From NCBI RefSeq assembly GCF_023703085.1, contig NZ_JAMQJY010000001.1, positions 2,418,001-2,482,000 of the forward strand: a stretch of DNA of 64,000 nt, written 5' to 3'. Below are positions 6,032 to 62,774 of the stretch, in pieces. Numbering within the stretch: position 1 is the stretch's first letter; every line of letters begins with the position of its first letter. The notes under the pieces were generated by a model. That model saw only the letters and a program-made list of their open reading frames with translations. It was not told where the DNA came from and made no database searches. A program made the position numbers and the translations under genes. The stretch comes from Alkalicoccobacillus plakortidis. GTDB lineage: Bacteria > Bacillota > Bacilli > Bacillales > Bacillaceae_D.

Positions 6032-7631
6032 TTAATATGGGCTAGATGGTTCGCTTAGTTCTTGGGCTTGCTCAACGGCTGATTTTTGAGTTGATTCGGA
6101 TTTGCCTAATTGCTCAATTCCTTCTTTCACTCTTCGGCCATATTCTTCATCTGCCTCAGTTAAATTTCGGATCATTTGCTCCTGCACCTGAGCGTTTGCC
6201 TGGCCAATTCCGACCACCAAATTTTTAACCAAGCTCATCTTTTTCCCAGTCTGATAATCGATTATAGGTTTCACCCGCTTGGCCAAAGTTGTTAGGGCGG
6301 TCAATTGGTGCTTTAACTACTCGGCCGCTTACTTCGGGCTCGTGGGGTTTGCCATTTCGATCGGCTTCACGTAGGCCTTCCACGGATGGTTCATAGTTAA
6401 TATGTGGGTTGTGAGAAGGTGGTGTGTCTACATGATAGGCCATTTGCCCGTCTCGTTGATTGGTTGCTACTCGTTTTTTTGGAGCGTTGATAGGAAGCTG
6501 CAAATAATTTGCCCCTACTCGGTGACGTTGGGTATCGGAGTAACTAAAGGTTCTTCCTTGCAGCATTTTATCATCAGAAAATTCTAATCCATCGACTAAA
6601 ACTCCGGTACCAAATGCAGCCTGTTCCACCTCAGCAAAATAATTTTGCGGATTTTTATTTAAAGTCATTTTCCCTACTTTGTGCCATGGAAATTGATCCT
6701 TATACCAAAGCTTCGTATCATCAAGTGGATCAAAATCCAAATCTGGATGCTCATGGTCTTCGATGATCTGTACATACAACTCCCATTCAGGGAAATCACC
6801 TTTTTCAATCGCATCATACAAATCCTCCGTTGCATGATTAAAGTTTTCAGCTTGAATCTTTTCAGCTACTTCCTGCGTTAAGTTTTTAATTCCTTGCAGT
6901 GGTTCCCAATGATACTTAACGAGTACAGCCTCGCCTTCTTCATTGACCCATTTATATGTATTCACACCTGACCCTTGCATTTGTCGGTAATTGGCGGGAA
7001 TACCCCACGGGGAGAAAAGAAATGTAATCATGTGAGTAGCCTCTGGGCTTTGTGAAATGAAGTCGAAAATTCTACCTGGATCTTGGGTGTTTGTGACTGG
7101 GTCTGGTTTGAACGCATGAATCAGATCAGGGAATTTCATTGCGTCTCGGATAAAAAAGATTTTTAGATTGTTCCCCACAAGATCCCAGTTGCCATCTTCG
7201 GTATAAAACTTCACGGCAAAGCCTCGAGGATCTCGTAATGTTTCCGGCGAATGAGTGCCATGGGTGACTGTTGAGAAACGAACAAAGACAGGTGTTTGCA
7301 CGTTTGTATTGGTAAAAACCTTCGCACGAGTGTATTTTGAAATTGGATCATCTCCAACCTTGCCATACGACTCAAAATATCCATGTGCACCAGCTCCACG
7401 TCCATGAACTACACGTTCAGGTACTCTCTCGCGGTCGAAGTGACTAATTTTCTCTAAGAAATCATAGTTTTCTAAGGTTGATGGTCCGCGATTTGTGACG
7501 GTTTTGATATTTTGGTTATCAACAATCGGCTGACCTTGGCGGTTTGTGAGCGTCTGATCCATTTCATTAGCTGCCTTACGTTGGTCTTGTGAGTCTCCTT
7601 CGTGCTGAGCATTAACCTCATTTTTTCCCAA
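6032..7631 (-). CDS. katA: Catalase (KatA-type, heme), frameshifted near its C-terminus
   Basis: A monofunctional heme catalase that disproportionates hydrogen peroxide in the cytoplasm. The main frame covers 468 residues with the N-terminal arm, distal His (Val-Val-His-Gly-Arg-Gly, residue ~76), the Gly-Asn-Asn-x-x-x-Phe-Phe heme segment, and the proximal Arg/Tyr region Ser-Tyr-x-Asp-Thr-Gln-x-x-Arg. It stops after Asp-Glu-Leu-Gly at 6225, while the natural continuation (Val-Lys-Asn-Leu-Val-Val-Gly-Ile-Gly) lies in another frame ending at 6032. Removing one base at 6229-6234 (GCTTGG to GCTGG) restores a single ~530-residue protein. TTG start with AAAAGGGG nine bases upstream. No clear PerR box is visible. 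Confidence 0.9.
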
Positions 7632-7634
7632 GTG

Positions 7635-7698
7635 AATAAACCCCTTTTCCTGGTCAATTTTGGATCGCTCTTATTGTTGTCCAGTTTAGGGGTTTATT
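7635..7698 (-). promoter_or_regulatory. Long inverted repeat covering the catalase ribosome binding site
   Basis: AATAAACCCC at 7635-7644 and GGGGTTTATT at 7689-7698 are perfect complements; the inner CCTGG and CCAG extend the pairing. In the catalase mRNA the right arm contains the AAAAGGGG Shine-Dalgarno, so folding would hide it. The arm begins only a few bases after the GNAT stop codon. It could be a leader hairpin controlling translation, an operator, or an imperfect terminator of the GNAT gene (there is no T run). Confidence 0.55.
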
Positions 7699-7704
7699 AT
7701 TCTT

Positions 7705-8202
7705 CTACAGCCATTTTTCCATAATAAAATCATCCATGACAAAGCCATTTCCGATCTCTTTGACCTCCGTGCGCACCTTTTTAAAGCCTTTTTTCTCATA
7801 AATAGCTATCGTATGCTCATTCTCACGATTAACAGTAAGCCAAATCGAGCTTAAACCTCTGCTTCTGCAAAACTCTTCCAAAAACACAATAACCTCACTT
7901 GCATACCCCATGCCTCTAAACTGTTTAAGCAAATATAGTTTACTTAAAAACAACGTACCTTCTTCTTCTTTTACGCCTATATAACCAATTGGGATACCAC
8001 TTTTAATTACATTAAAGTACTCATACCCCTCACTATGTATTTGACGTTGCACAGCTTCAGTGGATTGAAACTCTTTAATCATATAGTCTACCTGTTCTTT
8101 GGTAATAATCCCGATATAATGTTCATTCCAAATGCCAATTGCTAGTTCGGCTAGTGCTCCTATTTCTTCGTCGGTTTGCACCGTAGAAATTTGTATATTC
8201 AT
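7705..8202 (-). CDS. GNAT family N-acetyltransferase
   Basis: A GCN5-related acetyltransferase of about 165 residues that transfers acetyl from acetyl-CoA to an unknown amine. The fold signature is visible: Leu-Tyr-Leu-Leu-x-x-Phe-Arg-Gly-Met-Gly-Tyr-Ala (motif A, the CoA pyrophosphate loop, near residue 95) and the late Ile-Tyr-Glu-Lys-x-Gly-Phe motif B. The frame extends to 8382, but the ATG at 8202 has AAGGAG nine bases upstream and gives the proper N-terminus. It lies immediately upstream of the catalase and may be cotranscribed with it. Confidence 0.85.
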   Translation of the reverse strand: MNIQISTVQTDEEIGALAELAIGIWNEHYIGIITKEQVDYMIKEFQSTEAVQRQIHSEGYEYFNVIKSGIPIGYIGVKEEEGTLFLSKLYLLKQFRGMGYASEVIVFLEEFCRSRGLSSIWLTVNRENEHTIAIYEKKGFKKVRTEVKEIGNGFVMDDFIMEKWL

Positions 8203-8246
8203 GCCTTCAGCTCCTTTATAAATAACTCCATTATACGCACTCATAG

Positions 8247-8280
8247 AAAAAAGAGCTAAATACATAAAGTATCTAGCCCT
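8247..8280 (-). terminator. Terminator overlapping the stop of the Gfo/Idh gene
   Basis: On the minus strand, GGCTAGATAC and GTATTTAGCTC form a stem with a 5-base loop followed by six T. It closes the glycan operon. Confidence 0.75.
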
Positions 8281-9568
8281 TAATTTCTTCGTATTGCTGC
8301 TGTAATAACTGCTCAATATCAATTGGTTTTCCACTTTTAGACGATTTCCATACAGCTTCTCCCACTGCAATGGAGTAAGCACCCGCCTCTGAACCTGCTA
8401 GTATTTCGTAAGGTCTAGTTGGATCTGATCCCAAAAAGATATCCTCTTGAATGAGTGGATCTCCACCTCCGTGCCCGCCATCATTTTTCACAACATGAAT
8501 AATTTCCTTAGACCCAAACAGTGGATAAAAATCAATCGTTTGTTCAGGAACAGGAAATGGTGTCCGGTCCGGCGAGTGAAACTCTTGTGTTTCGAGTCTT
8601 CCTTTTGTTCCATTAATAGCAAGTCTGTATCCTTCATATGGCAAAGAGAAATTGATGGAATAGCTTAATAAAGCACCTTGGTCATATCGTACAGTTGCTG
8701 CATACGTATCTTCAATGTCAATTTCATGATCAAAAATACAGGCATCTGGGCGATAATTTGTGTACGCTTCTGTTTTCTGATCACTGATTAAATGATCATC
8801 CTCTGTCTCACCACTACCTCGTCCAAACAAGCGTGAATAATAAGAGCACAAGTGCCGCTCACTACAGGTTCCGCAATAACGGTTATCTGTTGGGCTTGGA
8901 TTTAACTCGCCATCTTTTCCGTAGTAGTTTAATGCACCAAATGAAAAGACCTGATCAGGTTTTTGATCGATCCACCAATTAACCAAATCGAAATGATGCG
9001 TAGATTTATGAATGGATAACCCGCCTGAAAATTCTCGCATTCGATTCCACCGTTTAAAGTAACTTGAGCCATGATACGTATCGATGTACCAGTTTAAATC
9101 AATGGAAGTAATTCGTCCTAGTTTGCCATCCGCTACCAGCTCTTTAATCTTACGGTGATAAGGGCTGTATCGATAGTTGAAGGCAACTGTAACTGTTCCT
9201 TTACTTTTTTCTTCAGCTTCCACAACTCTTTTTGCATCTTTGACTGTTGTGACCATTGGTTTTTCAGTAATGACATCAAGATCATGCTCAAGTCCTCTTA
9301 CAATATAGTCAACATGAGAATCATCTCTTCCAGTCACAATAATCGTATTGGCTCCTGTTTCTTTAATCATCTCTGCAAACTGTTCATATTGAGAGTAAAA
9401 AGGTATTCCAGTGAGTTCTGGGAATTTCTCACGACAAACCGCTTCTCTACGTGGATCAATATCAAGTAGACCAACGATTTGATTTTGTTTTGAGAATTGA
9501 TAGACAACCGGTTCCATAAACATTTTTAATGCACGATTACTAATTCCGCATACGGCAATTCGTCTCAT
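8273..9568 (-). CDS. Gfo/Idh/MocA family NAD(P)-dependent oxidoreductase
   Basis: A predicted cytoplasmic sugar or sugar-acid dehydrogenase of 431 residues. The N-terminal Rossmann fold begins Ile-Ala-Val-Cys-Gly-Ile-Ser-Asn-Arg, and the Glu-Lys-Pro motif (Thr-Glu-Lys-Pro-Met-Val) near residue 98 is the family hallmark. A cysteine cluster (Cys-Gly-Thr-Cys...Cys) around residues 230-240 is seen in a subset of carbohydrate-cluster members and may bind metal or be structural. It overlaps the YesL-type gene by ATGA, so it is translationally coupled. Last gene of the operon. The substrate is unknown, probably a sugar released by the GH43 enzyme. Confidence 0.85.
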   Translation of the reverse strand: MRRIAVCGISNRALKMFMEPVVYQFSKQNQIVGLLDIDPRREAVCREKFPELTGIPFYSQYEQFAEMIKETGANTIIVTGRDDSHVDYIVRGLEHDLDVITEKPMVTTVKDAKRVVEAEEKSKGTVTVAFNYRYSPYHRKIKELVADGKLGRITSIDLNWYIDTYHGSSYFKRWNRMREFSGGLSIHKSTHHFDLVNWWIDQKPDQVFSFGALNYYGKDGELNPSPTDNRYCGTCSERHLCSYYSRLFGRGSGETEDDHLISDQKTEAYTNYRPDACIFDHEIDIEDTYAATVRYDQGALLSYSINFSLPYEGYRLAINGTKGRLETQEFHSPDRTPFPVPEQTIDFYPLFGSKEIIHVVKNDGGHGGGDPLIQEDIFLGSDPTRPYEILAGSEAGAYSIAVGEAVWKSSKSGKPIDIEQLLQQQYEEIKG

Positions 9569-10194
9569 ACTTTAGCCTCCTGTGCTTTTCTCTCAAGTGA
9601 ATGATGAACTAACTTAAATATCCACATTAAGAATAATGCCGGTACAGCTGCTCCAAAGAATAAAATGAGTCCTGGAACTGTCATGAATAATGCTTGTAGT
9701 GCATACAAACCTACAAGAATTAGGATCAAAAAGTGGGGGTGGCCAAATGCGAGGGCAAGTGACGTTTTAATACGGTCAAGACCAGCTACTTCAAAACTTA
9801 CGTATGTTGGAAATAGAAAGATCACCATAATGGCATATGCAATTCCTAAAGAGATCATACTGTATCGGATTACGACGTATGTCCATTCCATTCCTGTGAA
9901 TAAAGTAAGATTCCAATAAATCAAAAACCCTACTAACAATAATCCAAAACCTAAGCCATTGGATTTTAGAAATTCAGTTTTATAATTGCTCCAGAACGTT
10001 TGAAAAACAGGAATGTCCAAGCTCCCCTGCATCCATTTCTTGCAAACAGTAAAAAGGGAAATTGTAGCTGGCATAAGGCCAAATGCAACCAACCCAACAA
10101 TAGTAAATAACAACCATAAAAAATTTACATAAGCGAGTTTATAAATAACGGTACTGATTCGATAAAAACTTCCCCAAATTCCTGGCATCTCCAT
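9565..10194 (-). CDS. YesL/DUF624 family membrane protein
   Basis: A small polytopic membrane protein (~209 residues) of the YesL family. Members usually sit in carbohydrate-utilisation clusters with Lpl-type transporters; their function is not established. Four to five hydrophobic helices are visible, with the typical N-terminal Trp-Gly-x-Phe-Tyr-Arg and Asn-x-x-Trp-Leu pattern. The start is either ATG 10200 or ATG 10194; GGGGTGA is well spaced only for the latter. Downstream gene overlaps by four bases; a small lipoprotein gene lies 16 bases upstream. Confidence 0.8.
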   Translation of the reverse strand: MEMPGIWGSFYRISTVIYKLAYVNFLWLLFTIVGLVAFGLMPATISLFTVCKKWMQGSLDIPVFQTFWSNYKTEFLKSNGLGFGLLLVGFLIYWNLTLFTGMEWTYVVIRYSMISLGIAYAIMVIFLFPTYVSFEVAGLDRIKTSLALAFGHPHFLILILVGLYALQALFMTVPGLILFFGAAVPALFLMWIFKLVHHSLERKAQEAKV

Positions 10195-10210
10195 GACCAT
10201 TCACCCCATT

Positions 10211-10714
10211 CTAGTTAGGAAATAATGTTTCCAAAATCTCTATAGCTTCTTCTGGCTGCGGACTATATACCGGTATACCAACGATGTGATTATTTTCTAG
10301 TAGTACGTCACGTTCCTCTTGTAATAGACTGCTTTCATTCAGGTTTAAAGCTTTGATTTCCTGTGCACCTTCTTCACCTTGAAGATACTCTTCATCCGCA
10401 AACCCGATATCAAAGCCTTCTAAATGAATCATTGCCTCGTATTCTACCATCTGCTTAGCGAGTCTTTGTTCCACAATCAAGAGACTTGACTGATGGCTAG
10501 CAAGCTCTGTTAATAACCGCTCTGCTATCTCTGGATAGAAAGTGATCTCAGTATCAGTACCCAGATCAAGCTTTGATTCAATCTTCTCTTTCTGCTCATA
10601 GATGTCATCAGAAAAAACAATGATTTTAAACTGGTCATCCCCTGATTGACAAGCAGTTAGAGGAATACAGAGAAACACAAACACTATTAATCTATTCACA
10701 GCTTTTTTCATCAT
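10211..10714 (-). CDS. Small lipoprotein of unknown function in the glycan operon
   Basis: I do not recognise a family. About 167 residues with a clear lipoprotein signal (two Met, Lys-Lys, hydrophobic stretch, lipobox Leu-Thr-Ala-Cys). The mature part is acidic with alternating helices and strands (for example Ile-Ile-Val-Phe-Ser-Asp-Asp), reminiscent of half of a periplasmic-binding-protein lobe, but far too short to be one. ATG at 10714 is preceded by GAGTGAGGG; the longer ATG at 10738 has no ribosome binding site. Its place between GH43 and YesL suggests a role at the membrane in the same oligosaccharide pathway. Confidence 0.7.
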   Translation of the reverse strand: MMKKAVNRLIVFVFLCIPLTACQSGDDQFKIIVFSDDIYEQKEKIESKLDLGTDTEITFYPEIAERLLTELASHQSSLLIVEQRLAKQMVEYEAMIHLEGFDIGFADEEYLQGEEGAQEIKALNLNESSLLQEERDVLLENNHIVGIPVYSPQPEEAIEILETLFPN

Positions 10715-10741
10715 GTATCCCTCACTCCTGTCATTCATTTA

Positions 10742-12306
10742 TTAATCGAGCCCGCTATAATAAAACCAGTCAAAGTCTGCATGGTTCTGACTTTGAGCGC
10801 CATTACTAGTTGCAAAAGGTCCTAAGTAGGCTCCCGTGAATCCTCAGCCAAATCTGTACTAAGGATTCTTCCATCTTCCTCTATCTTCAATTCTACCCAT
10901 TCATCAGGCTTCTCTCCGTAATAAAAATGATAGGACTGACCATGAGCCTCCACTTTTAAATAAACGATAGATTGTGAATAAGGATTACTTGCTACAACTG
11001 TATCCTCACCGTTCTCACGCCTGACTAATCTAACTACAGGAGCATTTTGATCAATGCCTACTTCCAACCTAAATTGATAGTTGTGATTTTGAATGAGCAG
11101 CACCCCTGCCGCTTCTTCTTTACTAGCTGGTGTGAACTCAAGAACTGTTGATGCAGAAAAGCTGAGGTGCTGCTGTCTGCGTCCTATAAAACTTGGATTC
11201 TTGTACTCAATTGTATTCTCTGGTCTCAAGTTTAATCGTAGATAACCCGGTCTTTCAGACAGTGAGTAAATGGATTCATCAGGTGTACGAAGAAAATTCC
11301 AACGAAAATCCAGTTGCTCACTTTCAAATGAATCATAAGCCGGCAAACTTGGCCATAGGTGTTCAGGAAGATCGGGACGTTCCATTTCAAGGTCGATTTT
11401 CCCTGTATCCGGACACATAACTGGCCAGTCGTCCTCCCAAATCATCGGTGCTAGGAAGGTCTCTCTACCTAAATTACGATAATGTCCTCCGTACGGTCTA
11501 GACGCTAGACATACAAGCCACCAATCACCATTTTGAGTCTCGATTATATCTGCATGCCCTACGTTAGCGATTTCTGAGTTCTTACCTAAATGTCTATGGG
11601 TTAAGATTGGATTTCTTTTAGACGATTCATACGGTCCAGTTATGGACTCACTTCTGGCCACCGTCACCGCATGTGTATAGCCAGTTCCGCCTTCAGCGAT
11701 AATTAGATAATAATAACCATCTTTTTTATATAAATGGGGTGCTTCTTGTGCATGAGCGTTTTTAAGTGCGCCATCCCATATTCCCAGACGTTCTCCAACC
11801 AATTTCCCTTGGTTGATATCTAGTTCTTGCAACCAAATTTCATTTTGCTTAAGGTGTTTCTTTCCAGTAGGTGAAAGCCTATTCCCTGTATAGTACACAC
11901 GTCCATCGTCGTCAAAAAAGAGTGATGGATCGATACCAGGAGCATCCTCTAACCAAACTGGGTCAGACCAAGGTCCTTCAGGATTTTTTGCTGTCACATA
12001 AAAATTCCTTCTAGCCCCTTCCCTACTCACAACAAATGTTGTAATCATATAGAACGTTCCCTCATGATAACGGATGGTTGGTGCCCATATTCCACATGAA
12101 GGAGGCGTATCCTTCAAATCTAGTTGGGAAGGACGATCTAATACATGACCAAGTTGTTTCCAATTCACAAGGTCTTTACTATGAAAGATTGGTACTCCAG
12201 GAAAGAACTCAAAAGTTGATGTAACTAGATAATAATCATCCCCCACCCTACAAATAGAGGGGTCTGGGTAGAATCCTGGAATAATAGGATTTTTAAATGT
12301 ACTCAC
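10742..12306 (-). CDS. GH43 beta-xylosidase/arabinofuranosidase-type glycosidase, frameshifted at the C-terminus
   Basis: A glycoside hydrolase family 43 enzyme (XynB-type, five-bladed propeller plus a C-terminal beta-sandwich) acting on xylo- or arabino-oligosaccharides. It has no signal peptide, so it is cytoplasmic. Catalytic features: the base Asp in Gly-Phe-Tyr-Pro-Asp-Pro-Ser near residue 16, the modulating Asp in Gly-Ile-Asp-Pro-Ser, and the acid Glu in Glu-Ala-Pro-His-Leu-Tyr. The frame stops at 10822, but the family ending (Gly-Phe-Thr-Gly-Ala-Tyr-Leu-Gly-Pro) continues in another frame to a TAA at 10742. One missing G around 10845 (GGCTGGAGG read as GGCTGAGG) explains it. GTG start with AAGGAG. 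Confidence 0.88.
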
Positions 12307-12333
12307 ACAATCACTCCTTAAAAATATATGATT

Positions 12334-13209: not shown

Positions 13210-13223
13210 GGTGTACCTCCTTT

Positions 13224-14186: not shown

Positions 14187-14238
14187 GATACACCCCTTTC
14201 ATTTAGAAGGAGCAGTTGATTTCTGCTCCTTCACTGAG

Positions 14239-22791: not shown

Positions 22792-23743
22792 TTATTTAAG
22801 TTCTTCGGCAATTTGATCAACAACGAGATCTAGTGCAATTGGAGAGTAATACCCAACCCACAAGGCCGTATCTTTTTCATAAACGTGGTCTTCGGTAACG
22901 GCTTTTAAGCCTTTCCATACAGAAGTGTCCATAAATTCCGCTGTTAATTCTGCGTTGGTGTCATCCTGAAGTAAAAAGAAATGATCAGCATCCATCTCAG
23001 GCAAGATCTCAATGGAAATCATTGAACTGGTGTCGGTATGATCTTCTGCTAATTCAGGAGGTGTCAGCCCCAAATCATCATATAAAATTGCTGCTGTGCG
23101 ATGATCGACTGTATGAAGACGAATCATATCGTCTCGTGGACGAATGAGAGCCACTGTCTCTCCACCACCGTTTTAGCAAGTTCCTCTTTAAGTCCACTCA
23201 CTTTTTCATTGTAATCATCAACAATTTTTTGTGCTTGCTCTTGTTGCCCTAACAACTCTCCCATTTTTAGCTGAACAGTCTTCCAGTCCTCCATACGGTC
23301 TAGCACAATTGTATCTGCAATGCTTTCTAATTGATCATGGATCCCTTCTTGAGCGTCAGTTGCAATGATAAGATCAGGTTCTAGGGAAAGAATTTGTTCA
23401 ATATTAGGCTCTTCATACGTTCCAAGTAATGTCGGATCACCTGGTAAATCGCCAAGATAATCTGGAAGTGCTTGGTCCGTTCCAAGCGTATACCGTTCCA
23501 ATTGGTTGTGTACCTAATGCCAATAGATGATCTAAATATTGAACATCAAGAACCACTATGTTCTCAGGTATTTGATCAAAGGTTATTTCCCCTTTGAGGT
23601 GTTCAATCGTCACTTCACCCTCTGATGAAGATTGAGCTTCAGCTTCATTTTCCTCATCTGTTGTATTTCCGCATGCTCCAAGCAATATAGCAAGACCAAG
23701 CTAAAAGATTTATCGTCCATCCTCTTTTTGTTTTAGCATTCAT
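22792..23743 (-). CDS. Iron-siderophore ABC transporter binding lipoprotein, three frameshifts
   Basis: FecB/FhuD/FeuA-type binding lipoprotein (~316 residues) that captures a ferri-siderophore. ATG 23743 with AAGGAG opens a signal peptide that reaches the lipobox Leu-Leu-Gly-Ala-Cys only if one base is removed at 23696-23701. A second lesion of the same kind is at 23482-23487 (restores Val-Tyr-Ala-Gly-Thr-Asp-Gln). A third, one missing base, is near 23158-23163. Between them runs the family pattern Pro-Asn-Ile-Glu-x-Ile-Leu-Ser-Leu-x-Pro-Asp-Leu-Ile-Ile. Divergent from the Btr-like regulator across a Fur-like box. No permease or ATPase genes are adjacent. Confidence 0.85.
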
Positions 23744-23877: not shown

Positions 23878-25480
23878 ATGACTTTTAATGACAACATAAA
23901 AAACGAACTTTCCTCTTATGTATATAAATTAGAAAGCGTTACCTATTTTGATTCACAAAAAAGTATCATGCAAACTCCGTCTCACCATAGTTTCATTCTA
24001 TTTAAAGAATCCATTGGACAGATTGAACTAAACGGAACTAACTATTCTATTAATGAGGATTCTGTCTTTTTTTCACATGCCAACAATCATAAAAAGCAGG
24101 AGATCCACTTCACAGAACGCCTACAAGGATATCATTTTCAATTTTATTCTTTAATAGATCAAGTGGCCGGAGAGTACAAACAAAGTCCTCTTTCTTGCCC
24201 TCAAAAGCTCTATACAACACAACACTCGTTACTACAGACAAAAGCAGAAGAGATCTTCAATCTACAAGACCACGATAAGATGATGGCGAATATCTTATTT
24301 CAAAAATGGATCTACACAGTATTTAACGAATTACAAACTGGACAGTCCTTATCTATTGAACAACTCATTCATAAAAGCCGTGAATACATAAACACCCATT
24401 ACCACTTAGAGATTACACGTGACCAACTTGCTCAAATGACTGGACTGAATGTTGATTATTATTCACGTAAATTTAAGCAATACTTTCAAAAAAGTCCGAT
24501 CACGTACTTAAATGATGTCCGTCTGTGGCAAGCCAAGCAACGGCTGATTCAAACAAATGAACCAATTCGCTCTATTGCTAAACAAGTAGGGTTCACTGAT
24601 GAGTTTTATTTTAGTCGAAAATTCAAAACAAAAGAGGGGTACTCCCCTACGTTTTATATAAATAAATTAAAACAATCGAGACGTTTGGCCTCACTTAACC
24701 ATGTTGTTACTGGTCACTCGCTTGCACTTGGTATTGAGCCTTACGCCGCTATACGGAATCAATCTTTTCCTCTTACTAGCGAAATCGAGCATACCCTTTC
24801 AATTGGCAATGAGTATCCTGATTTAGAAAGATTGCTTACTGTTAAGCCTGAACTAATTGTTAGATGTGCACCTGCAGATCAAAAACAAACCAATAAAGAC
24901 GAGCTGTACCATCATATTGCTCCTACAGTCACTCTATCCTTTCAAGATAGCTTGGAAAAAGAATTTAGATATTATGGCTCGTTTACTTAATAGAGAAAAT
25001 GAAGCTATGACTTTTTTGGAAACGTATCACACAAAAGTAGAGATGGTTAAGAAACAGATAAAACATAAAGTTGGTAGTGGCAATATTCTTATACTGGGGA
25101 TAGGAGAAGGTGCAATTTGTGTATATGGACAACGAAATCTTGGCAGTGTTCTATACAACGATTTACACATCTCAAAACCTGCAGGAGTGGAGCAGATCTA
25201 TCATGTGAAAGAAATCTCCCTTTCCGACTTATGTATGATGAATCCAGACCATATCTTGTTAACCATCTATCGAAACAAAAATAGACTACCAAGTAAACAA
25301 GCTATACGTAACCAAATAGTACACGTACAGCAAAGTCCAGAGTGGAACGCACTCAAAGCTGTCCAACAGGACAAGATCTATTCAATTCTTGACACAAATC
25401 ACTTATACACCAGCTATAACTCCTTCTCACAACATTTATTTCTGAATAAAATGCAGCAGTTATTAACTGAGAGAATCTAA
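23878..25480 (+). CDS. Btr-like AraC regulator fused to a siderophore-binding domain, one frameshift
   Basis: A ~533-residue regulator. It has an N-terminal cupin-like region, an AraC-type double HTH (about residues 160-260), and a C-terminal FecB-type substrate-binding domain, the architecture of B. subtilis Btr, which senses ferri-bacillibactin and activates uptake genes. The frame breaks at 24950-24955: with GCTGG in place of GCTTGG the text reads Asp-Ser-Trp-Lys-Lys-Asn-Leu-Asp-Ile-Met-Ala-Arg-Leu-Leu and continues to 25480. ATG 23878 with AAAGGA is preferred over the upstream in-frame ATG at 23767. It likely controls the divergent binding-protein gene. Confidence 0.85.
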
Positions 25481-28478: not shown

Positions 28479-29917
<1,439 letters not shown>

Positions 29918-41330: not shown

Positions 41331-42501
41331 TTAGTTTTTATCCATATTGTAGCTAATAAAAGAAAGTACGGAAGCAATTAATGCACAAGCACCACCAACA
41401 AGTGCAAGATATGGCAAGCTTCCATTAGCAACGACCAGTCCACCTAATGCAGATCCAAGCGTTATACCTACGTTAACTGAAACAGGAGTTAAAGAGGATG
41501 CAAGGTCTCTTGCTCCAGTAGAATACGCTTCTGCCTTATCCATCAGATACACTTGAATGGTTGCGTTCATCATATAAAGTGTAATAGCCATCAGCATAAT
41601 ACTAATTAAACCTGCGACCGTGAATCCCATCGTAACAAATAAAGAAGCGATAATAAGTGCTTGTACAATAAAGGCATAACGTAAATGACCAATGCCTTTA
41701 CTGCTTGCAATTTTACCAAGCCAAGAAGTTACTTCCAATCGAAAAAACACCGTATACAAGTAAGACAAGCCCTACTGAATGAGAGGCGATTCCTAGTTCT
41801 CCCTCCAAGATCGGGGCAATATACGTGTAAATCGCATATGTTCCAGCAATACTAAACGTCGGAATAAAAAAAGCTATTAAGATCTTTGGATCCTTAAATA
41901 AAACAAGCTGTTGCTTAATAGAGCTTCCACCACTCGATTTTAACTTTGGCAGAACAAATAGAGAGATGATAAATGCCACTAAACCAAGTGCCGCTGTGGC
42001 CCAAAACGTAAGATGCCAAGAACCTAGCTGCCCAATAAACGTTCCAAGAGGCACACCTAATACATTAGCAATGGTAAATCCAGCAAAGATCAGTGCGATG
42101 ACAGATGACCTTTTTGCTGCAGGCATTGTATCACTCGCAATGGTCATGGCTAGGGCAGTGAGAACTCCACTAGCAGCAGCTGTAAGAATTCGTGCCGTTA
42201 GTAGCACATTAAATGAAGAAGTTAAGGCACTAACTACATTTCCTAAGATAAAGAAACCAATTAAAATTAACATAAGTGGGTATTTTGGAAATCTACTTAC
42301 CCATCCTGTAAGTAATGGCGTACCCACCGCATAAGCAATTGCAAATCCAGAAACTAATGTGCCCGCTGCAGCTATACTTACATTTAGATCCTGCGCTACC
42401 TCTGACAATAATCCTACAATAACAAACTCACTTGTTCCCATTACAAATGTAAGTAATGTTAGAGTAAAAGCCAATATCTTTTGTTGCTTCGTTAATACCA
42501 T
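41331..42501 (-). CDS. MFS transporter (AraJ/DHA1-like), one frameshift
   Basis: A 12-helix major facilitator of about 389 residues, probable drug or sugar efflux. N-terminal Gly-Thr-Ser-Glu-Phe-Val-Ile-Val-Gly-Leu and the motif-A-like loop place it in the AraJ/YdhP group. The two frames join when one base is removed at 41716-41721 (GCTTGG to GCTGG), giving Asn-Phe-Leu-Ala-Gly-Lys-Ile-Ala-Ser. ATG 42501 with GGTGGAG. Shares an operator with the ArsR gene upstream, which probably represses it. Confidence 0.87.
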
Positions 42502-48522: not shown

Positions 48523-49117
48523 TTAAAATCTAGTTTTTACGTCCGGATTAGCAAGAACAACATCAGTAAAATGCACAGTGTTTCCGCTTCCAATTGGCGA
48601 TTGCGCAACAATACCTGCCTTACATTTTTCCGATGTCTTCATCCCAAAATAACGGATTAACTTCCATGTTTCCCCGTCTTCTGAATAGAAAAAGGATACG
48701 CAGTTTTTGACTTTACTAATTTTTAAATAGGGTTTTGAAACGACCACTTCTACTGAATTACAATCATCTGACCAACCATCTCTTGTGACAACCGAAACAA
48801 TCGTTGGTACTTCTCCATCATATTCAAAACAAAGCTTAGCCCAATTCAGCTCATCCTCCATCAGCATCAAGCAGCCTGAATCGTATTGAGTAATCATCTC
48901 CACATCAACTTGAGCAATTAGTTCAAAGGATTCAGACACCGTTGTATATAAAAAGGGAGCGGACTTTTTAATGTGATTGCCTGCTGGATCATTAAAGAAA
49001 TCCGCCCCAAGCCTGCGCTTGAATATGAATCCCTTCTGCCTCTAAAAAAGTCCATGTATCAGGTTCATTCATCCACTCTAATTGTTCCCGTTTTTCTTTG
49101 CTAAGTAAGTTTGTCAC
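48523..49117 (-). CDS. DUF1349 family protein (concanavalin-like fold), one frameshift
   Basis: About 198 residues, family of unknown function with a lectin-like beta-sandwich. The strong start is the GTG at 49117 with AGGAGG nine bases upstream (GTG 49123 is too close). The first 37 residues run in one frame (Asn-Glu-Pro-Asp-Thr-Trp-Thr-Phe). Removing one base at 49007-49012 (GCTTGG to GCTGG) joins them to Gly-Ala-Asp-Phe-Phe-Asn-Asp and the rest of the protein, including Asp-Gly-Glu-Thr-Trp-Lys-Leu-Ile-Arg-Tyr. Same operon as the phosphotransferase. Confidence 0.82.
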
Positions 49118-49211: not shown

Positions 49212-50577
49212 TTAATTTATTGCAAACTGTTTTTCAGCTAAATGTTTTCCTAAATATATACCACTGGCAGCAGCCTGAGAGAGTGAACTTGTGATACCTG
49301 AGCAATCTCCTATTACATAAAGCCCTTTACAATTTGTTTGGAACTGATCATCCGTTTCAATGATTGGGGAATAAAATTTACCATCGATCCCATATAGAAG
49401 TGTATCTCCATCTATCTCTTGACCTACAAAATCTTGCAATCTACAAAGAAACTCTTCCAAGCGTCTTCGTATAGAGTTCAGGAATTTCGTCATGAAGATT
49501 TCCACAGTCAGCTTTTAGGGTAGGTCGTATGTGATTCTTCATTAATTGTGAATTATTTGTTGCCTGCTTATTTCTAAAGTCTTCTAAACGTTGTATGACA
49601 ATCCGATCCCCACCTTTATTAATTTGACCAATCACCTGCTGTGCATAGTCATTCGCCTCTCTCAAAGTAGTAAAATAAGTCGGAGTAAAAAAAGTGAAGT
49701 TCAAATTAGAAGTACCTGTTTCTTTTTCTCGGAAATTCTGACCATCTGGCATCACTAATCCCTCTTGATGTTTGCGGATAATTTGGCCTCTTGGGTTCAT
49801 ACAATATGTAGTTGAAGTACGATCTCTATAGGTCATAGCTAATTTTGTTTCAAAAGTACCTTGTAAAATGGACCTCAATTGCGTCTCTTTCATTTCTACT
49901 CTCATGCCCAAATCTAGTCTTGTTTTCCCTCGATTCACTCCTAATTCAGAGCACTTTTCATCTAGCCACTCTGTGCCAGACCGTCCGGTAGCCACTACTA
50001 GTTTTTGAGAAGAGTAGACACCTTTATCTGTAGATAATGAAAATCCATTCTTCTTTTTTTCTATTTTATCTATATTCACTTCAAATGCCATATCTATCTT
50101 AGAACTTATACTCAACACACGATAGAATTCTTGGAAAACTTCGGTTGATAGCTTGCTTCCTAAATGTCTAACTTCAGTTGTTAACATCTGTAAACTGGAG
50201 GCTATGGCTTTTTGATCTAGTTTCTCATTTACCGTTGAATATTTAGAGACTTTATCTCCACCAAAGTGACATATTACCTCATCAACTTCTCTTAGTAGTT
50301 CCTCATGCCTCTGATTCCCAACTTTCCTGGCCAACTCTCCTCCAAAACCACTTGCATAATTAAATTTACCTTCAGACTTTCCTAAGCCAGCAAACCCAAC
50401 ATATCTATCACAAGTCTCACAATGGCAGACTCCTGTTTGATCAGATGAACAGTTTCTATCAGCCAAAGGTTTTCCCTTTTCAAGAATAAGAATCTTTTGA
50501 TTGAGATTCGATTCGGCTAGCGTTAATGCGAGAAATAAGCTACTCACCCCTGAGCCTACAATGATGATCTCGTACAT
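49212..50577 (-). CDS. FAD-dependent dehydrogenase (COG2509-like), one frameshift
   Basis: About 454 residues. N-terminal FAD-binding Rossmann motif Gly-Ser-Gly-Val-Ser-Ser, a cysteine group Cys-His-Cys-x-x-Cys with an upstream Cys around residues 43-56, and the Gly-Lys-Phe-Asn-Tyr-Ala-Ser-Gly-Phe-Gly-Gly segment like uncharacterised FAD dehydrogenases. The C-terminal FAD motif is Gly-Leu-Tyr-Val-Ile-Gly-Asp-Cys-Ser-Gly. One extra base at 49457-49462 (GCTTGG for GCTGG) splits it; correction gives Tyr-Thr-Lys-Thr-Leu-Glu-Glu-Phe-Leu. The cysteines could bind a metal or cluster. Single gene. Confidence 0.82.
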
Positions 50578-53581: not shown

Positions 53582-55637
53582 TTGCTCATTCAAAAAATAA
53601 TTCAGTATAAGCGTTCCGTTGTACTTTTCTTTGCTGTCATGACGATCATTGCCGTCATCGCACAATTTTTTGTATCGATTAACTATAATATGGTCGATTA
53701 TTTACCCGAGGAGGCTCCTTCAAGTATTGGACTTGAGGAAATGGAATCAGAATTTACAGCTTCCATTCCAAATACCAGTGTTCTGATAAGGGATGTCTCT
53801 GTTCAAGAAGCAATTGAATACAAAGAACAATTAGGCACGATTGATGGCGTATCAGATGTCATGTGGCTTGATGATCTAATGGATACTAGAATTCCTTTAG
53901 AAGTTGCTGACTCTAGTATGATTGAATCCTATTATAAGGATGGCCAGGCTCTTATTTCTTTAACGATCGAAACTGGAGCAGAGGTTGATGCGACTAATGC
54001 CATTTATGAGCTAATTGGAGAAGAGAATGCGGTTGCAGGTGAAGCTGTAAACACAGCGACTTCTCAGAATATGACTAGCTCAGAAACAATTTATGCAGCT
54101 GCTTTATTAATTCCGATTATCGTGATTATTTTAATACTATCCACTAATTCATGGGCCGAACCTATCTTTTTCTTAACCGCTATAGGTGTATCAATCTTAA
54201 TTAATTTAGGCACAAACGTTTTTCTAGGAGAGATTTCATTTGTTACACAATCTGTGGCTCCAATTCTGCAGTTAGCCGTCTCACTGGATTATGCCGTTTT
54301 CTTACTCCATCGATTTTCAGATGAGCTAAAGCTTGGGCATTCTCCGGAAAAAGCAATGTCAATAGCAATGAAAGCTTCTTTCCCGGTTATCTTTGTTAGT
54401 GCTCTTACTACTTTTTTTGGATTTATGTCCTTAATGCTAATGGAGTTTGGCATAGGCGCAGATCTTGGTTTAAACCTTGTAAAAGGTATTGTTTTCAGCT
54501 TTTTGTCTGTAGTCGTCTTTTTACCTGCTTTAACCCTATACGGTTACAAATGGATTGAAAAAACAAGACATAAAAGCTTAGTTCCAAGCTTTAAAGGGGT
54601 TGGCTCAAAAATTCTAAAGTGGCGCATCCCTGCTCTTCTGCTTGTTTTCGCTTTGCTTGTTCCGAGTTTCTTAGCTCAGAGCAGTACGTCTTTCACATAT
54701 GGGTTAGGAGATTTACCTGAAGATACCCGTACTGGTCAGGATGTACGAGCAATTGAGGAGGCATTTGGTCAATCAACACCGATTGTGTTGTTGGTTCCTA
54801 ACAATGATGTAGCGAAAGAAGAGGCGTTAGCTCATGAACTGGAAATGCTTCCACATGTAGATTCAGTGATGTCTTACGCTACAGCAGTAGATTCAGCGAT
54901 TCCTATTGATTTCCTTGATGAATCCATTACAAGTGAGTTTCGCTCTGCTTCTTATAGTCGACTTATGGTGTTTACGAATGCAGGGGTTGAAGGGGACATT
55001 CCGTTTCAGCTAGTAGAACAAACAAGGGAGCTAGCCTCTTCTTATTATGGTGATGAAGCTCATAGCTTAGGTGAGAGCGTGACGCTTTATGATATCAAAG
55101 AGACGGTAAGCAAGGATAATCAGTTTGTAAACATTATGACCATTGTCACCATAGCGTTTATTCTTCTTTTGACATTCCGGTCTATATCGATACCCATCAT
55201 ATTATTGCTTACCATTCAAGCAGCCGTGTGGATTAATTTATCTGTTCCTTATTTCACAAATGATTCGCTTGTTTTCGTAGGATACTTAATCGTGAGTACA
55301 GTACAATTAGCTGCTACTATTGATTATGGGATTTTACTAATGGAAACCTACAAACACCACCGGGAGAAGATGCCAGCATACCAAGCTATGAAAACAGCTT
55401 TGGATGAAAAACTGTTCTCCATTACGATATCTGCAGCCATCCTATCAAGTGTTGGCTTCATCCTTTGGTTCACTTCTACCAATCCAACAGTATCCTCCAT
55501 TGGACTACTGCTAGGACGTGGTGCTGCTCTTGCATTTTTACTGGTCATATTTTTCCTGCCAGCTTTATTGCTTGGTCTCTGATCGGTTCGTTAAAAAGAC
55601 AACCTATAAAGCTGATTTTTATGAGGAGGAAGACTAA
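53582..55637 (+). CDS. MMPL/RND-family transporter, frameshifted at its last residues
   Basis: About 684 residues with twelve predicted helices in two repeats: one helix, a large extracytoplasmic loop, then five helices, twice. Signatures are Leu-Asp-Tyr-Ala-Val-Phe-Leu-Leu-His-Arg and Ile-Asp-Tyr-Gly-Ile-Leu-Leu-Met in the helices that carry the proton-relay Asp in MmpL proteins. The TTG at 53582 is spaced six bases from GGTGGGG; the GTG at 53570 overlaps it. The frame stops early at 55582; removing one base at 55570-55575 (GCTTGG to GCTGG) yields a charged tail ending in four acidic residues, with TAA abutting the next gene's ATG. Confidence 0.9.
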
Positions 55638-57452: not shown

Positions 57453-57462
57453 TGTTAGTGAA

Positions 57463-57497
57463 GGAATGGACATCACGGATATCCATTCCTTCTTTTT
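57463..57497 (+). terminator. Terminator of the MMPL operon
   Basis: GGAATGGACATC pairs with GATATCCATTCC (one mismatch) around 3 bases, followed by TTCTTTTT. Confidence 0.85.
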
Positions 57498-57509
57498 GTA
57501 GATTTCTCC

Positions 57510-57908: not shown

Positions 57909-58024
57909 AAAATGGACTCCTTACTCTAGTATTTTTCCCATTCTAAATCCTCTTCTAATTCTCTAATTAAGTCTAACAGAATGTTTTGGCTTTTAATGCT
58001 CTATGATATTAAATCTCAAAACAA

Positions 58025-58057
58025 AAAACAGCTGAGGACTCGCTCCTCAGCTGTTTT
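58025..58057 (-). terminator. Terminator of the PTS operon
   Basis: AAAACAGCTGAGGA pairs perfectly with TCCTCAGCTGTTTT around 5 bases; on the minus strand the T run is six long. Confidence 0.92.
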
Positions 58058-58068
58058 GGTCATTATAA

Positions 58069-59967
58069 TTATATAACTGAATCCATTGCTTTACCTTTAT
58101 TTCGATCTTTCTCAGATAGAGGCTTCTTCAAAAGCCCAATCATTAAGCAGGTTACGATCGATCCAAGTAGGATACATCCAATGTATAAGAAAGGATGATT
58201 ACTTGCTATCGGTATGACAAAGATCCCGCCATGTGGTGCTTGTAGAGATATATTTAGAGCCATACACGCAGCACCACCAATTGCAGCACCTACGATATTC
58301 GCAGGAATGATTCGTAATGGATCTGCTGCTGCAAATGGAATTGCACCCTCTGTAATAAAGCTTGCTCCCAATACATAGCTTGCTTTTCCAGCTTCCGCTT
58401 CTTGAAGAGTGAAGCGATTTTTGAATAACGTTGTCGCTAGTGCAATCCCGATTGGTGGGACCATACCACCAACCATAAGAGCGGCAGAAGGCTCAAAGAT
58501 ATTCGCTGCAAACATCGCTAAACCAAAGGCTGATGCGGTCTTGTTAATTGGACCGCCCATATCTGATGCCATCATACCAGCTAACAATGCACCTAAGATT
58601 GCTGCATTAATACCTGTAAGACCTGTTAACCAGTTTTCTAAGAATACATTGAGTAAGGACATTGGTGTATTTAAGATAAAGAACATAAATGCACCAACAA
58701 TAAGAGTACTTAATAATGGAACTAATAAAACAGATATTAAGCCTTGGAAGGCCTTTGGTACTCTAGCAAAAGCTCGTCCAATATACAAAGCTGAGAATCC
58801 AGCCACAAACCCGGCAAACATCCCGCCAAGGAATCCAGATCCACCAATACTTGCGACCATACCACCGATCATAGCAGGAGCAAGACCTTGCTTATCCGCA
58901 ATACTGTATCCAATGAACCCAGCCAAAATAGGAACCATTAGAGCGAACGCTGCTTCTCCACCTACTTGACTAAAGAATTCTGCAAAGATATTATACTGAT
59001 CACTTTGAGGATCAGCTGCATAGATTCCAAACATAAATGAAATGGCAATGAAGATACCACCCACCACTACAAATGGGATCATATAAGATACACCACTCAT
59101 AATATGCTTATAGAAATTCAAGCCTGACTTCTTCTCAGGTTCAGCATGCGATTCTGAAACATGCTCAGACTGAGGGTCACGAATATCATAGGCGAGTGCT
59201 TGGTCAATTAATTGATCAGCATGACTAATCGCCTTTTTTACTGGGACATCAACAAAACGTTTCCCTTTGAATACATCCGTATCCACTTTAACATCATGTG
59301 CCACAACAATTGCATCCGCATTCTGAATATCTGATGCTGTTAAACGATTTTCCGGTCCATTGGCACCATTGGTTTGAATTTTAATTTTCATTCCACGTTT
59401 GGCTGCTGCTTCTTTTAATGACTCTGCAGCCATATACGTATGCGCAATACCCGTCATGCAAGCGGTGATACCCACTATATATTTTCCTGAATCCTGCTTG
59501 TCCGTTTGGTCAGGCTCATCAGATACGTCTTGATTCTTTATAGCGTTTATGACCTCATCCATTGATGTAGCTACTAGTAACTTTGCTCGGAATGCTTCAC
59601 TCATTAGAAACGTCGAGAGCTTAGATAAAAGAGAGAGATGTTCATTTGATGCATTTTCAGGTGCAGCAATCATAAAGATTAAGTTCGTGTGCTGTCCTCC
59701 ATAATCTATTCCTTGAAGTGTTCGCCCCATTATGATTGTCGGCTTAGAAACGGATTTTGATTTTGCGTGTGGAATTGCTACTCCATACCCCACAGCTGTA
59801 GAAATTTCATTCTCTCTTTTATATATCGCTTTTTTAAAGGCAATAGGATCATTTGTCAGTTGATTCTCAGTCAACTTGTTCACTAATTCATCAATGACAG
59901 TATCTTGATCAGTACCTTTGAGATTTAAAATTATATTATCACTAGTAAGAATGTCTACTAATTCCAC
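58069..59967 (-). CDS. PTS fructose-type EIIABC transporter
   Basis: 632 residues with all three PTS domains. EIIA (1-145, phosphoryl His about 67 in Val-Ala-Ile-Pro-His-Ala-Lys), EIIB (about 163-260, Cys about 170 in Thr-Ala-Cys-Met-Thr-Gly-Ile-Ala-His-Thr) and EIIC (about 285-625, eight to ten helices; Pro-Ile-Gly-Ile-Ala). It imports and phosphorylates a fructose-like sugar. Last gene of a three-gene operon with a PRD regulator and a class II aldolase. The sugar may be fructose or another ketose; the aldolase suggests its product is cleaved after a second phosphorylation. Confidence 0.92.
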   Translation of the reverse strand: MELVDILTSDNIILNLKGTDQDTVIDELVNKLTENQLTNDPIAFKKAIYKRENEISTAVGYGVAIPHAKSKSVSKPTIIMGRTLQGIDYGGQHTNLIFMIAAPENASNEHLSLLSKLSTFLMSEAFRAKLLVATSMDEVINAIKNQDVSDEPDQTDKQDSGKYIVGITACMTGIAHTYMAAESLKEAAAKRGMKIKIQTNGANGPENRLTASDIQNADAIVVAHDVKVDTDVFKGKRFVDVPVKKAISHADQLIDQALAYDIRDPQSEHVSESHAEPEKKSGLNFYKHIMSGVSYMIPFVVVGGIFIAISFMFGIYAADPQSDQYNIFAEFFSQVGGEAAFALMVPILAGFIGYSIADKQGLAPAMIGGMVASIGGSGFLGGMFAGFVAGFSALYIGRAFARVPKAFQGLISVLLVPLLSTLIVGAFMFFILNTPMSLLNVFLENWLTGLTGINAAILGALLAGMMASDMGGPINKTASAFGLAMFAANIFEPSAALMVGGMVPPIGIALATTLFKNRFTLQEAEAGKASYVLGASFITEGAIPFAAADPLRIIPANIVGAAIGGAACMALNISLQAPHGGIFVIPIASNHPFLYIGCILLGSIVTCLMIGLLKKPLSEKDRNKGKAMDSVI

Positions 59968-59997
59968 AAAAACCCCTCCCAGATCATTCTGAAATGC

Positions 59998-60868
59998 TTA
60001 ACTGAAATAGTGATGCGCTTGATTCGTTGAATTAAATAGATCCATCTTTTTCTTCACAACTTCTTGTGCAGCCTTACGTGCACTCGGCATGATCATATCA
60101 GGCTCATAAGCTGTATCGTTTTCGATTAGGAAGCGACGCATTTCTTTGAAGAAAGCATTCTTCATATCAGTTGAAAGATTAATTTTTGATACTCCATGTA
60201 GGTAGGTCTGAGAGATTTCCTCATCTTTGTTATCACTACCACCATGAAGAACAAGAGGGATATCTACATTTTTGTTGATCTCAGCAAGCAGATCTAACTT
60301 TAATTCTGGCTGTCTATCGTGTTTGTATTGACCATGGGACGTTCCAATTGCTATAGCCAATGTATCAATTCCAGTTTGTTCTACAAATGTTTTTGCATCA
60401 TCTACATCTGTATATAAGATGACATCCGCTCCACCTTCAGAGCTTCCTTCATTTGATCCAATTGTTCCTAGTTCAGCTTCAACAGAAACATTGACGCTAT
60501 GTGCAAGTTTCACTACCTCTTTAGAGATGGCAATGTTATCTTCAAATGATGCGTGAGATGCATCAATCATGACAGACGTAAATCCGTTTCTAATCGCTCT
60601 CATAACATCTTCTACAGAACCACCATGGTCAAGATGGATAACCATTGGAACCTTTGCATTTCGGCAGCTCTCACGAACATAAGCAATAAAATCATCACCT
60701 AGAAGTTCTACTTCATTTGGGTGGATTTGAATGATAGCTTGGTGCATTTTTCTCTTCAGCAGATTCAATAATAACCCTTACAAATTCACTGTTCGCCACG
60801 TTAAATGACCCTACTGCAAACTGATGCTTGTACGCTACCGCTAATAGATCCTTCATATTCATTAACAT
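59998..60868 (-). CDS. Class II ketose-bisphosphate aldolase, one frameshift
   Basis: Zinc-dependent aldolase of about 289 residues cleaving fructose- or tagatose-1,6-bisphosphate. Signatures are Val-Ile-His-Leu-Asp-His-Gly (Asp base and Zn His), Val-Glu-Ala-Glu-Leu-Gly-Thr-Ile-Gly, and Leu-Val-Leu-His-Gly-Gly-Ser-Asp. The true ATG is 60868 with AGGAGAG. The first ~39 codons join the rest when one base is removed at 60737-60742 (CCAAGC to CCAGC on the coding strand), giving Asn-Ala-Pro-Ala-Ile-Ile-Gln-Ile. It lies 21 bases after the regulator and 30 before EIIABC. Confidence 0.88.
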
Positions 60869-60889
60869 AATTATCTCTCCTCTTTTGTT

Positions 60890-62774
60890 TTAAATCTGAT
60901 TCCAAACGTTTAAAAACTCTTCTTCAGTTGTTGTATGAACCAGTGACCTCACATGTTCAATGTTCTTCGTCTTCTGAAAAAACTCTGTAAATACATATTC
61001 ATTCCGTTCAACATCTGACGAAGGAATATAGATGATAATCAGCTGTACCTTTTCTGTGCCCCACTGAATGGCTTGTTGATTAATACCAATCATGACGCGT
61101 TCCTTATACTCTTTCATTTCGAAATAAGGATGAGGAATGGCGACTAGATTTCCTATAGATGTATAGGACATCGTCTCTCTTCTCATAATGGGCTCATAAA
61201 ATGATTCTTGTTGACTCACTGTTAATAAGTGATGAATCGCTTCAGAAGGGCTTTGTTCGTTCATCCAGAAAATATTCGCTTGTTCAACTATCATATTTTG
61301 AGCTTCTAGAAAGAATCTTATTCTCTTGATATCTGCGCTTTTAAAACTACCCTGTACATTAATAAAATTGGTTTGATCTTGAGAAACATGTGTTAGATCG
61401 ATCCCAATATATAAATAATGATCTTTAAACACCTGATCTGCTGAATACTTTTCTAGTTTGACTATTTCTAGCTCATCGAAATAAGTAGCGATCTTTGAAG
61501 CAAGAAGCTCCGTTCGCTCATATCCTCTTGTGTAAAGAATGATTGTCTTACGCTTCTTTTTGTCCTGCGACTGGATGATTACCTGAATGTGATAGGCCAG
61601 ATAAGCAATCTCACTATCCTGAATTTCCACGTCAAATTCCTTTTCGATTTGTAAGGCTAAATTTGAAGCGACACTAAACGAGAAGAAATACTCTGCTTTT
61701 GTTTCTTTCACAAACGGATTATAGATAAGCAAATTATGTGAAGCTGGATAGATAATCCGATAGATGTGATTGAGTATATTATGTCTATAACGCTGCTCTG
61801 AATAGGTTGGCACATGATATATCTGCTCTACTTTGAATAGAATCGACTCGATTTTTTCGACAATCTTTGAATTTCGATTGGATATATCTACATCCTCTAA
61901 ATCAAGCTGTAACGACATCAAATAATTGACCAGGAAGACAATTTCGTCTTCTGAAAATGTGGTGTACTCATTCATCTGAGTTTGAAACGCTTGGGCCACA
62001 TCATATTCCTTAAACTCTGTTAACTTCATCAGTTCTTTATCATCAATAACAACCAGACGTTTTTGATTCATTTGATGAATCATTATGAGTAGCTGCACGG
62101 TTAACTTTTTATAAATAGTGAATTCGATATTTAACTGATACTTTATGTTCATTTCATCCACTAATCTAAAAACGCTTTCAATTGTCTGTGAATCCACCCA
62201 TGACTGAAAATGCTGAATAACAAAATCCTTATAGTTTTCTTTTTTCACATGAATAGAAGTGAAAAAGCTCTCAAGTAGGATTCTTTTTTGCATTTCTGTT
62301 CCAAGCTAGTTTAATCCCCTTAAACACCCTAGTATCAATTGATACATCAATTCCTAGAGAATAAATGTTTATCGTGAGCTTCTGCATACGACTTCGAATC
62401 GTTTGTGGCGAATAATAAAAGGCTTCTGCTAGCTCTTCATAAGTAGTGTATTCATCTCTATTCATTAAGAATTGGATGATTTCAAACTCAAGAATAGCCT
62501 CTTCAGGTTCCTTATTTGTTAGATCAACCTCCTCTTGATTTCCTTGGCTATCGTCAGACATCATTGCATATCCTTGAGGAGATGAGACGATGACGATATC
62601 ACTGAAGTTCTCATTAATATCTTTTATATAATTACGAATGGTTCGATCTGTAACGTTTAACATGTCTGCTAACGTTGCAGCCGATACGTAACCTTGGTTT
62701 TGCTTTAATAGAAAGTCAATTAATTGTTTACGTTTTTCATGCAAATCAACCACAACCTTTCTATGACTCAACAA
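60890..62774 (-). CDS. PRD-domain transcriptional regulator (MtlR/BglG-like), one frameshift
   Basis: About 627 residues: N-terminal HTH pair (Thr-Asp-Arg-Thr-Ile-Arg-Asn-Tyr near residue 45, second HTH about 115-130), two PTS regulation domains, an EIIB-like segment and a C-terminal EIIA-like domain with Ile-Pro-His-Pro-Tyr (His phosphorylation site). It senses PTS activity and should activate its own operon. One extra base at 62301-62306 (GCTTGG for GCTGG) splits it; correction gives Lys-Leu-Ala-Gly-Thr-Glu-Met-Gln-Lys. The start is uncertain: TTG 62774 or another TTG about ten codons later, closer to AAAGG. Confidence 0.87.

Follow-up and report, generated by a model that had tools for sequence, protein, structure and literature searches.

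Frame breaks at GCTGG throughout an Alkalicoccobacillus plakortidis assembly are almost certainly consensus errors, probably at a modified motif

The closest precedent for what is described here, a recurrent one-base lesion at the pentamer GCTGG that breaks genes in a 64,000-nucleotide stretch of the Alkalicoccobacillus plakortidis assembly GCF_023703085.1 and elsewhere in that genome, comes from Listeria monocytogenes R20-0026 (ST1081), in which Oxford Nanopore Technologies (ONT) errors were centred on the same pentamer (CCAGC on the opposite strand; Commun Biol 2023, PMC10687267). As that report is drawn on here, the errors numbered thousands in one genome, survived polishing and were attributed to base modification because whole-genome amplification removed them, taking 5,670 mismatches down to 16; GCTGG errors were seen in one of twelve Listeria strains only (PMC10687267). 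In Klebsiella, nanopore base callers left consensus errors at Dcm sites (CCAGG/CCTGG), and the portion of that study used here describes a similar situation, consensus errors that recur systematically at a pentamer carrying methylated cytosine and missing from model training, albeit at another motif and in another organism (Genome Biol 2019, PMC6591954). An artefact of this kind is already on record, with GCTGG itself as the motif; its indel form in another genus, together with a candidate methyltransferase pair, was not found in print by our literature searches, and a study of strains from spacecraft clean rooms (PMC12067966) had no bearing on the matter.

In the genome analysed here (4,366,190 bases in 9 contigs), the window, by which we mean the whole 64,000-nucleotide stretch, occupies positions 2,418,001-2,482,000 of contig 1. 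We conclude that, almost certainly, the frame breaks are assembly errors rather than mutations and the genes are intact in life; on that reading the genome-wide motif specificity is therefore a sequencing artefact of a known kind and not new biology. The lesions would be consensus errors of a long-read assembly, the platform most likely being nanopore. GCTGG/CCAGC is probably modified in the cell, most likely as 5-methylcytosine (5mC), and the base caller would misread a fraction of the sites, doubling the T (GCTTGG), dropping a G (GCTG) or, it may be, now and then calling T in place of the C (GTTGG). As candidate writer of the modification we propose a locus adjacent to rlmH that resembles a restriction-modification (R-M) system and encodes two cytosine-5 methyltransferases in tandem, alongside a gene for an HNH nuclease.

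The specificity of the lesion was established by a scan in which frame switches were logged blind to any motif. Open reading frames (ORFs) of G003, one of four other genomes of the same genus used for comparison (G001-G004, sizes rounded), were aligned with tblastn to 574,628 bases of the analysed genome, the sample consisting of the window, a region of 110,628 bases surrounding dnaA and one stretch of 400,000 bases, and switches between adjacent aligned pieces were recorded. A break was counted as motif-bearing if GCTTGG or CCAAGC lay no more than 12 bases away, and the chance expectation was taken from 2,000 random placements of the same intervals in aligned coding DNA. The scan yielded 94 distinct breaks, 66 of them with GCTTGG, against a mean of 2.78 and a maximum of 10 in the random placements. 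Among breaks with one extra base the association is nearly complete (61/62), which does not fit homopolymer-length noise, although some of the breaks with a missing base do. Breaks of the latter type lie within 12 bases of GCTG or CAGC in 17 of 22 cases (mean 5.45 by chance; none of the 2,000 placements reached 17), and many of them are probably due to loss of a G from GCTGG. Relative to their genes, the 62 one-extra-base lesions are sense in 40 cases, antisense in 20, both in one and neither in one. The reciprocal scan, in which ORFs of the analysed genome were aligned against an 800,000-base sample of G003, turned up 6 breaks, GCTTGG being absent from all of them; the analysed genome had 101, 72 with the word, before duplicates were merged. 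For the other sister genomes, G001, G002 and G004, the sole comparison is their lower number of GCTTGG words per megabase (Mb).

GCTGG is the source of the doubled-T lesion. When one-base insertions were collected from DNA alignments, whose 77-79% identity brings in numerous indels that have nothing to do with the motif, GCTTGG was present in 73 of 331 relative to G003, and 24 of these 73 had exactly GCTGG in G003; relative to G002 the corresponding figures are 26/97 and 11/26. The word counts agree: the analysed genome carries 3,178 GCTTGG words in 4.366 Mb, or 728/Mb, compared with about 507-544/Mb in the four same-genus genomes, an excess of ~850 words by arithmetic on the densities, the relatives' sizes being rounded, while the reversed control word stands at 252/Mb against 233-284/Mb. 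Measured against G003, GCTGG itself is the lowest-scoring pentamer, with 542 occurrences seen and 853 expected by length, which is partly an effect of G+C content.

The first-pass annotation, made from the window sequence alone, had drawn attention to twelve positions at which GCTTGG or CCAAGC appeared to break a gene. The word is present at all twelve by direct look-up, and comparison with ORFs of relatives places a +1 frame switch at ten of them, those at 23696 and 41716 from one source each. At 49007 and 49457 no relative ORF in the comparison set gave a junction, and the breaks claimed there follow from ORF ends. The suspicion that a glycosidase gene near 10845 carries a lesion of a second type was borne out by a -1 switch in 26 sources. 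The lesions are as follows, with L172, L173, L174 and L175 denoting loci of G002, G004, G001 and G003, respectively.

6229..6234, minus strand: GCTTGG break in the catalase gene, C-terminal part lost; +1 against G002 and G003 ORFs
10845..10848, minus strand: -1 break at a GCTG word in the GH43 gene (named in the first-pass annotation), the second lesion type; 26 sources
23482..23487, minus strand: GCTTGG break in the siderophore-binding lipoprotein gene (Peripla_BP_2); +1 against G002, G003 and A. gibsonii L021
23696..23701, minus strand: second GCTTGG break in the siderophore-binding lipoprotein gene; +1 against G002 only
24950..24955, plus strand: GCTTGG break in a gene with a Peripla_BP_2 domain, earlier named Btr-like; +1 against G002 and G003
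29106..29111, plus strand: GCTTGG break in the GH1 glycosidase gene (Glyco_hydro_1); +1 in 14 alignments
29628..29633, minus strand: second GCTTGG break in the GH1 gene, the gene lying on the plus strand; +1 in 23 alignments
41716..41721, minus strand: GCTTGG break in the MFS transporter gene (MFS_1); +1 against G002 only, with a broad junction, 41719-41771
49007..49012, minus strand: claimed GCTTGG break in a gene earlier named DUF1349; word present, ORF ends only
49457..49462, minus strand: claimed GCTTGG break in the FAD-dependent enzyme gene (Pyr_redox_3, DAO); ORF 49441-50577 ends there
55570..55575, plus strand: GCTTGG break in the MMPL-family transporter gene (MMPL); +1 against G003, also as L175
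60737..60742, plus strand: GCTTGG break in the class II fructose-bisphosphate aldolase-like gene (F_bP_aldolase), the gene lying on the minus strand; +1 against G002 (also L172) and L174 of G001
62301..62306, minus strand: GCTTGG break in the PRD/PTS-EIIA regulator gene (PRD, PTS_EIIA_2); +1 against G002 (also L172), L173 of G004 and L174 of G001

The catalase gene illustrates the damage: its ORF (6225-7631) encodes 468 amino acids with only a partial Catalase-rel domain, and the top-scoring relative, at 92% identity, has 533 amino acids and both catalase domains. The window by itself would not have made the case, since its enrichment for GCTTGG is only mildly unusual: the 37 words on its two strands compare with a shuffle mean of 21.8 and a maximum of 37, which 3 of 100 shuffles reach, and their density is below that of the genome as a whole. 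Our argument is for this reason not built on the window word count, and 25 of the 37 words stand at places that nobody claims as breaks.

What distinguishes error from mutation is that the lesions are carried by ribosomal RNA (rRNA) copies, tRNA ligase genes and other housekeeping genes. In six full 23S copies compared with G003 there are 6 indels, 0 to 2 per copy, all inside GCTGG sites, two of them a doubled T and four a lost G. Four of the seven GCTGG sites in 23S are hit, one in three copies and three in one copy each, and for every hit site there are copies that have it intact; one of the lesions falls in AGCTGGTTCTCC, which we take to be a near-universal 23S stretch. A seventh copy (L151), whose first 32 positions were uncovered, has a single indel, which lies outside its seven GCTGG sites. 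In 16S, one of the eight stretches covering one CCAGC site bears a lesion. A further 23S copy (L152; G000:C8:65650-68387, G000 being the analysed genome) lies at a contig end, is 96% identical and contains dozens of small indels; it was left out of the rRNA indel count on account of that position and those indels, and looks like unpolished long-read sequence. Its raw-read-like indels, together with some homopolymer losses, suggest long reads.

The leucyl-tRNA ligase gene leuS is read in one frame, then for ~260 codons in another and then in the first again, while each of the four sister genomes has it uninterrupted. In the analysed genome each lesion type breaks the gene once, as a +1 with GCTTGG and as a -1 where G003 has CCAGC, and no other match of that genome to the leuS model lies above cut-off, leuS being the gene for which second copies were searched. 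The affected genes number 77, of which 55 have GCTTGG; 20 of these 55 were submitted for naming from G003 proteins and 17 received a name, and metG, serS, thrS, sufB, sufS, polA and ptsI are among those broken at GCTTGG. That a living cell could do without all these housekeeping genes is not credible. Two causes had been offered for the window lesions. The one that posits a modified base misread in the consensus is supported by the rRNA and tRNA ligase lesions, by the GCTGG precedent and by the methyltransferase pair described below; the other, a motif-specific mutator, is not supported. A tRNA gene (L119:7334-7406) also has one G fewer in a GCTGGG than G003 does, and ARAGORN assigns it no amino acid; it was not counted as proof because the loss is equally one of a run of three Gs.

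If GCTGG is modified, which enzyme modifies it? The modified-base proposal had invoked a methyltransferase, and a pair of cytosine-5 methyltransferases is indeed present in the genome. Five methyltransferase families were searched and only PF00145 is convincing: the analysed genome has a pair of adjacent genes, a further gene linked to a phage and a fragment, G001 has one match and G002-G004 have none. The two adjacent genes lie beside rlmH on contig 1, in a stretch labelled L159, as follows.

L159:9245-13107 (G000:C1:2593245-2597107), minus strand: locus beside rlmH, with two cytosine-5 methyltransferases and an HNH nuclease gene
L159 13552-14031, minus strand: rlmH
L159 11974-13107, minus strand: HNH nuclease gene, between rlmH and the methyltransferase pair; HNH_2 domain and PADLOC HNH matches
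L159 10500-11666, minus strand: cytosine-5 methyltransferase, 388 amino acids; PF00145 and TIGR00675 over cut-off
L159 9245-10489, minus strand: cytosine-5 methyltransferase, 414 amino acids; PF00145 and TIGR00675 over cut-off

Dcm is a single methyltransferase acting on a palindromic site, and there are type II R-M systems in which two cytosine-5 methyltransferases serve an asymmetric one. The locus resembles the latter in having two adjacent cytosine-5 methyltransferases and a nuclease gene, but differs in that its nuclease matches HNH models over the C-terminal part only (residues 231-374 of 377); Bacillus homologues of the nuclease are called HNH endonuclease and are 433 amino acids long, and the match extends, in the same frame, past the listed start on its upstream side. 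An asymmetric site such as GCTGG/CCAGC needs a mark on each strand, which would suit a pair of cytosine methyltransferases, and we lean towards the pair as the source of the GCTGG modification. The fuller proposal casts the rlmH-linked locus as a type II R-M system specific for GCTGG, whose pair marks both strands and leaves its footprint (GCTTGG, GCTG, GTTGG) in the finished assembly. We regard it as about evenly balanced between true and false; literature searches found no description of a GCTGG-specific type II system of this kind. Between ~9000 and 13600 of L159 there is no GCTGG or CCAGC, and five GCTTGG or CCAAGC words stand there in open frames. The 414-residue methyltransferase has Bacillus relatives at 87% and 78% identity among the best 120 of 7,992 matches, and a Lactococcus plasmid carries an adjacent methyltransferase pair, at 56.6% identity, next to a nuclease with a PLD domain; searches among plasmids and phages for this methyltransferase and among plasmids for the nuclease returned only matches below 60% identity.

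The remaining cytosine-5 methyltransferase genes are one (L160:8836-9897) two genes away from a phage terminase small subunit gene and so placed probably in a prophage, and a fragment (L161:9590-10264) that covers the first half of the family profile only. Less likely than not, though by no means negligible, is the reading that the same artefact arises at a GCTGG modified in some other way, be it by the phage-linked cytosine-5 methyltransferase, by an enzyme acting on adenine or on N4 of cytosine that escaped recognition, or through a modification other than methylation. The presence of the phage-linked gene and the fragment would allow this, and so would the Listeria case, in which, in the portion of the report considered, the GCTGG modification was not identified and known 5mC and N6-methyladenine (6mA) counts did not explain it (PMC10687267). 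Set against it are the tandem pair, which suits an asymmetric site, and the outcome of the family searches: PF01555 and PF02086 have no match in the analysed genome, both PF07669 matches are below cut-off, and the one PF02384 match over cut-off is weak and has comparably weak counterparts in each of the four sister genomes.

A plain fault of the base caller or polisher in the context of GCTGG, with no modification at all, is unlikely. It would be compatible with the fact that only a fraction of the sites is hit, but the Listeria errors at the same word, as far as the report is used here, vanished after amplification and affected one strain of twelve (PMC10687267). Flanking sequence offers little to distinguish hit from spared sites. 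When the 8 bases to either side of 60 hit sites (2 of the 62 one-extra-base breaks do not have exactly one word and were omitted) were compared with those around 542 intact ones, only positions -1 (p 0.006) and +1 (p 0.0055) differed, and neither survives correction for 16 positions. The earlier proposal of recognition "in some context" is therefore not borne out by these two weakly differing adjacent bases, and the comparison brought out no longer motif; because the contexts hardly differ, the signal appears to be the pentamer itself, struck part of the time.

Substitutions at the motif were also counted. GCTGG in G003 corresponds to GTTGG in the analysed genome at 45 of 581 sites, and the reverse is seen at 8 of 398; relative to G002 the excess is smaller (22/266 and 7/173). 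Where G002 and G003 both have GCTGG, the analysed genome, over the 574,628 bases of its own stretches, has GTTGG at 9 of 74 sites, with 3.1 expected. By codon phase, an excess is found where the change would replace alanine with threonine (9/97 and 5/39) and not where it would replace alanine with valine (3/199 and 2/128), and there is an excess outside ORFs relative to G003 (7/68; reverse 0/48). Drift from C to T is also present in several control words. With the controls thus mixed, the GTTGG excess would fit a modified C, whether through miscalling or through true deamination, and it might be that part of it is true deamination of 5mC rather than miscalling.

It is very hard to believe that a motif-specific mutator or error-prone repair truly inserted the T and that the genes are broken in life. 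Such an agent would account for the strong motif specificity, in a genome that does contain cytosine methyltransferases, and for the modestly raised number of C-to-T changes at position two of GCTGG. It would also have had to damage four tRNA ligase genes together with sufB and sufS, to strike different sites in different 23S copies, to make indels of two types at a single motif and to add ~850 extra words genome-wide. Scarcely any probability attaches to the idea that the insertions are present in the DNA and tolerated through ribosomal frameshifting or transcript editing at GCTTGG: about two-thirds of the +1 lesions located in genes are sense, but at the 20 antisense lesions the word in the transcript is another one, the lesion also strikes rRNA, and most GCTTGG words in the window stand where no break is claimed. 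Programmed frameshifting was considered separately and rejected, as it would place the word in coding sequence in a single orientation, and both orientations are present and rRNA is hit.

Several observations nonetheless weigh against our preferred reading, that of consensus errors at a modified GCTGG written by the rlmH-adjacent pair. The errors of R20-0026 were mismatches in R9.4 data, not indels, whereas here a T is gained or a G lost, and in what is used here of that report the strain had no named enzyme and no raised 5mC count, whereas here a candidate pair is present (PMC10687267). The specificity of the pair for GCTGG is a proposal, and a second, phage-linked cytosine-5 methyltransferase and a fragment are also in the genome. 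Only part of the GCTGG sites is hit, which modification alone leaves unexplained. Three 23S copies share the lesion at one site, and all 8 stretches of 16S share one indel outside the motif. In the scan, 28 of the 94 breaks lack GCTTGG, some resembling homopolymer losses, and in the DNA alignments one-base deletions with GCTGG in the relative are rare (14/204 relative to G003, 3/68 relative to G002). Finally, among the 39 relatives in the word-density search some more distant genomes match or exceed the GCTTGG density of the analysed genome (G023, ~725/Mb; G034, ~973/Mb), so that density by itself proves nothing outside the genus.

By extrapolation from the break scan and the word counts, ~690-850 such lesions are implied in one public genome, housekeeping genes included, and pseudogene counts, or gene loss and decay, inferred from it would mislead. 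The footprint offers a cheap flag for affected assemblies and lets a modification motif be guessed from finished sequence. Were the rlmH-linked locus truly a GCTGG-specific R-M system, methyltransferase specificities would become readable from public assemblies, through motif-specific frame breaks and with no recourse to reads.

The window also contains three further -1 breaks, at ~23166, 26455 and 38823, which have 2-3 sources each and are not obviously at GCTGG, and two weaker ones at ~20966 and 53432, with 1-2 sources each.

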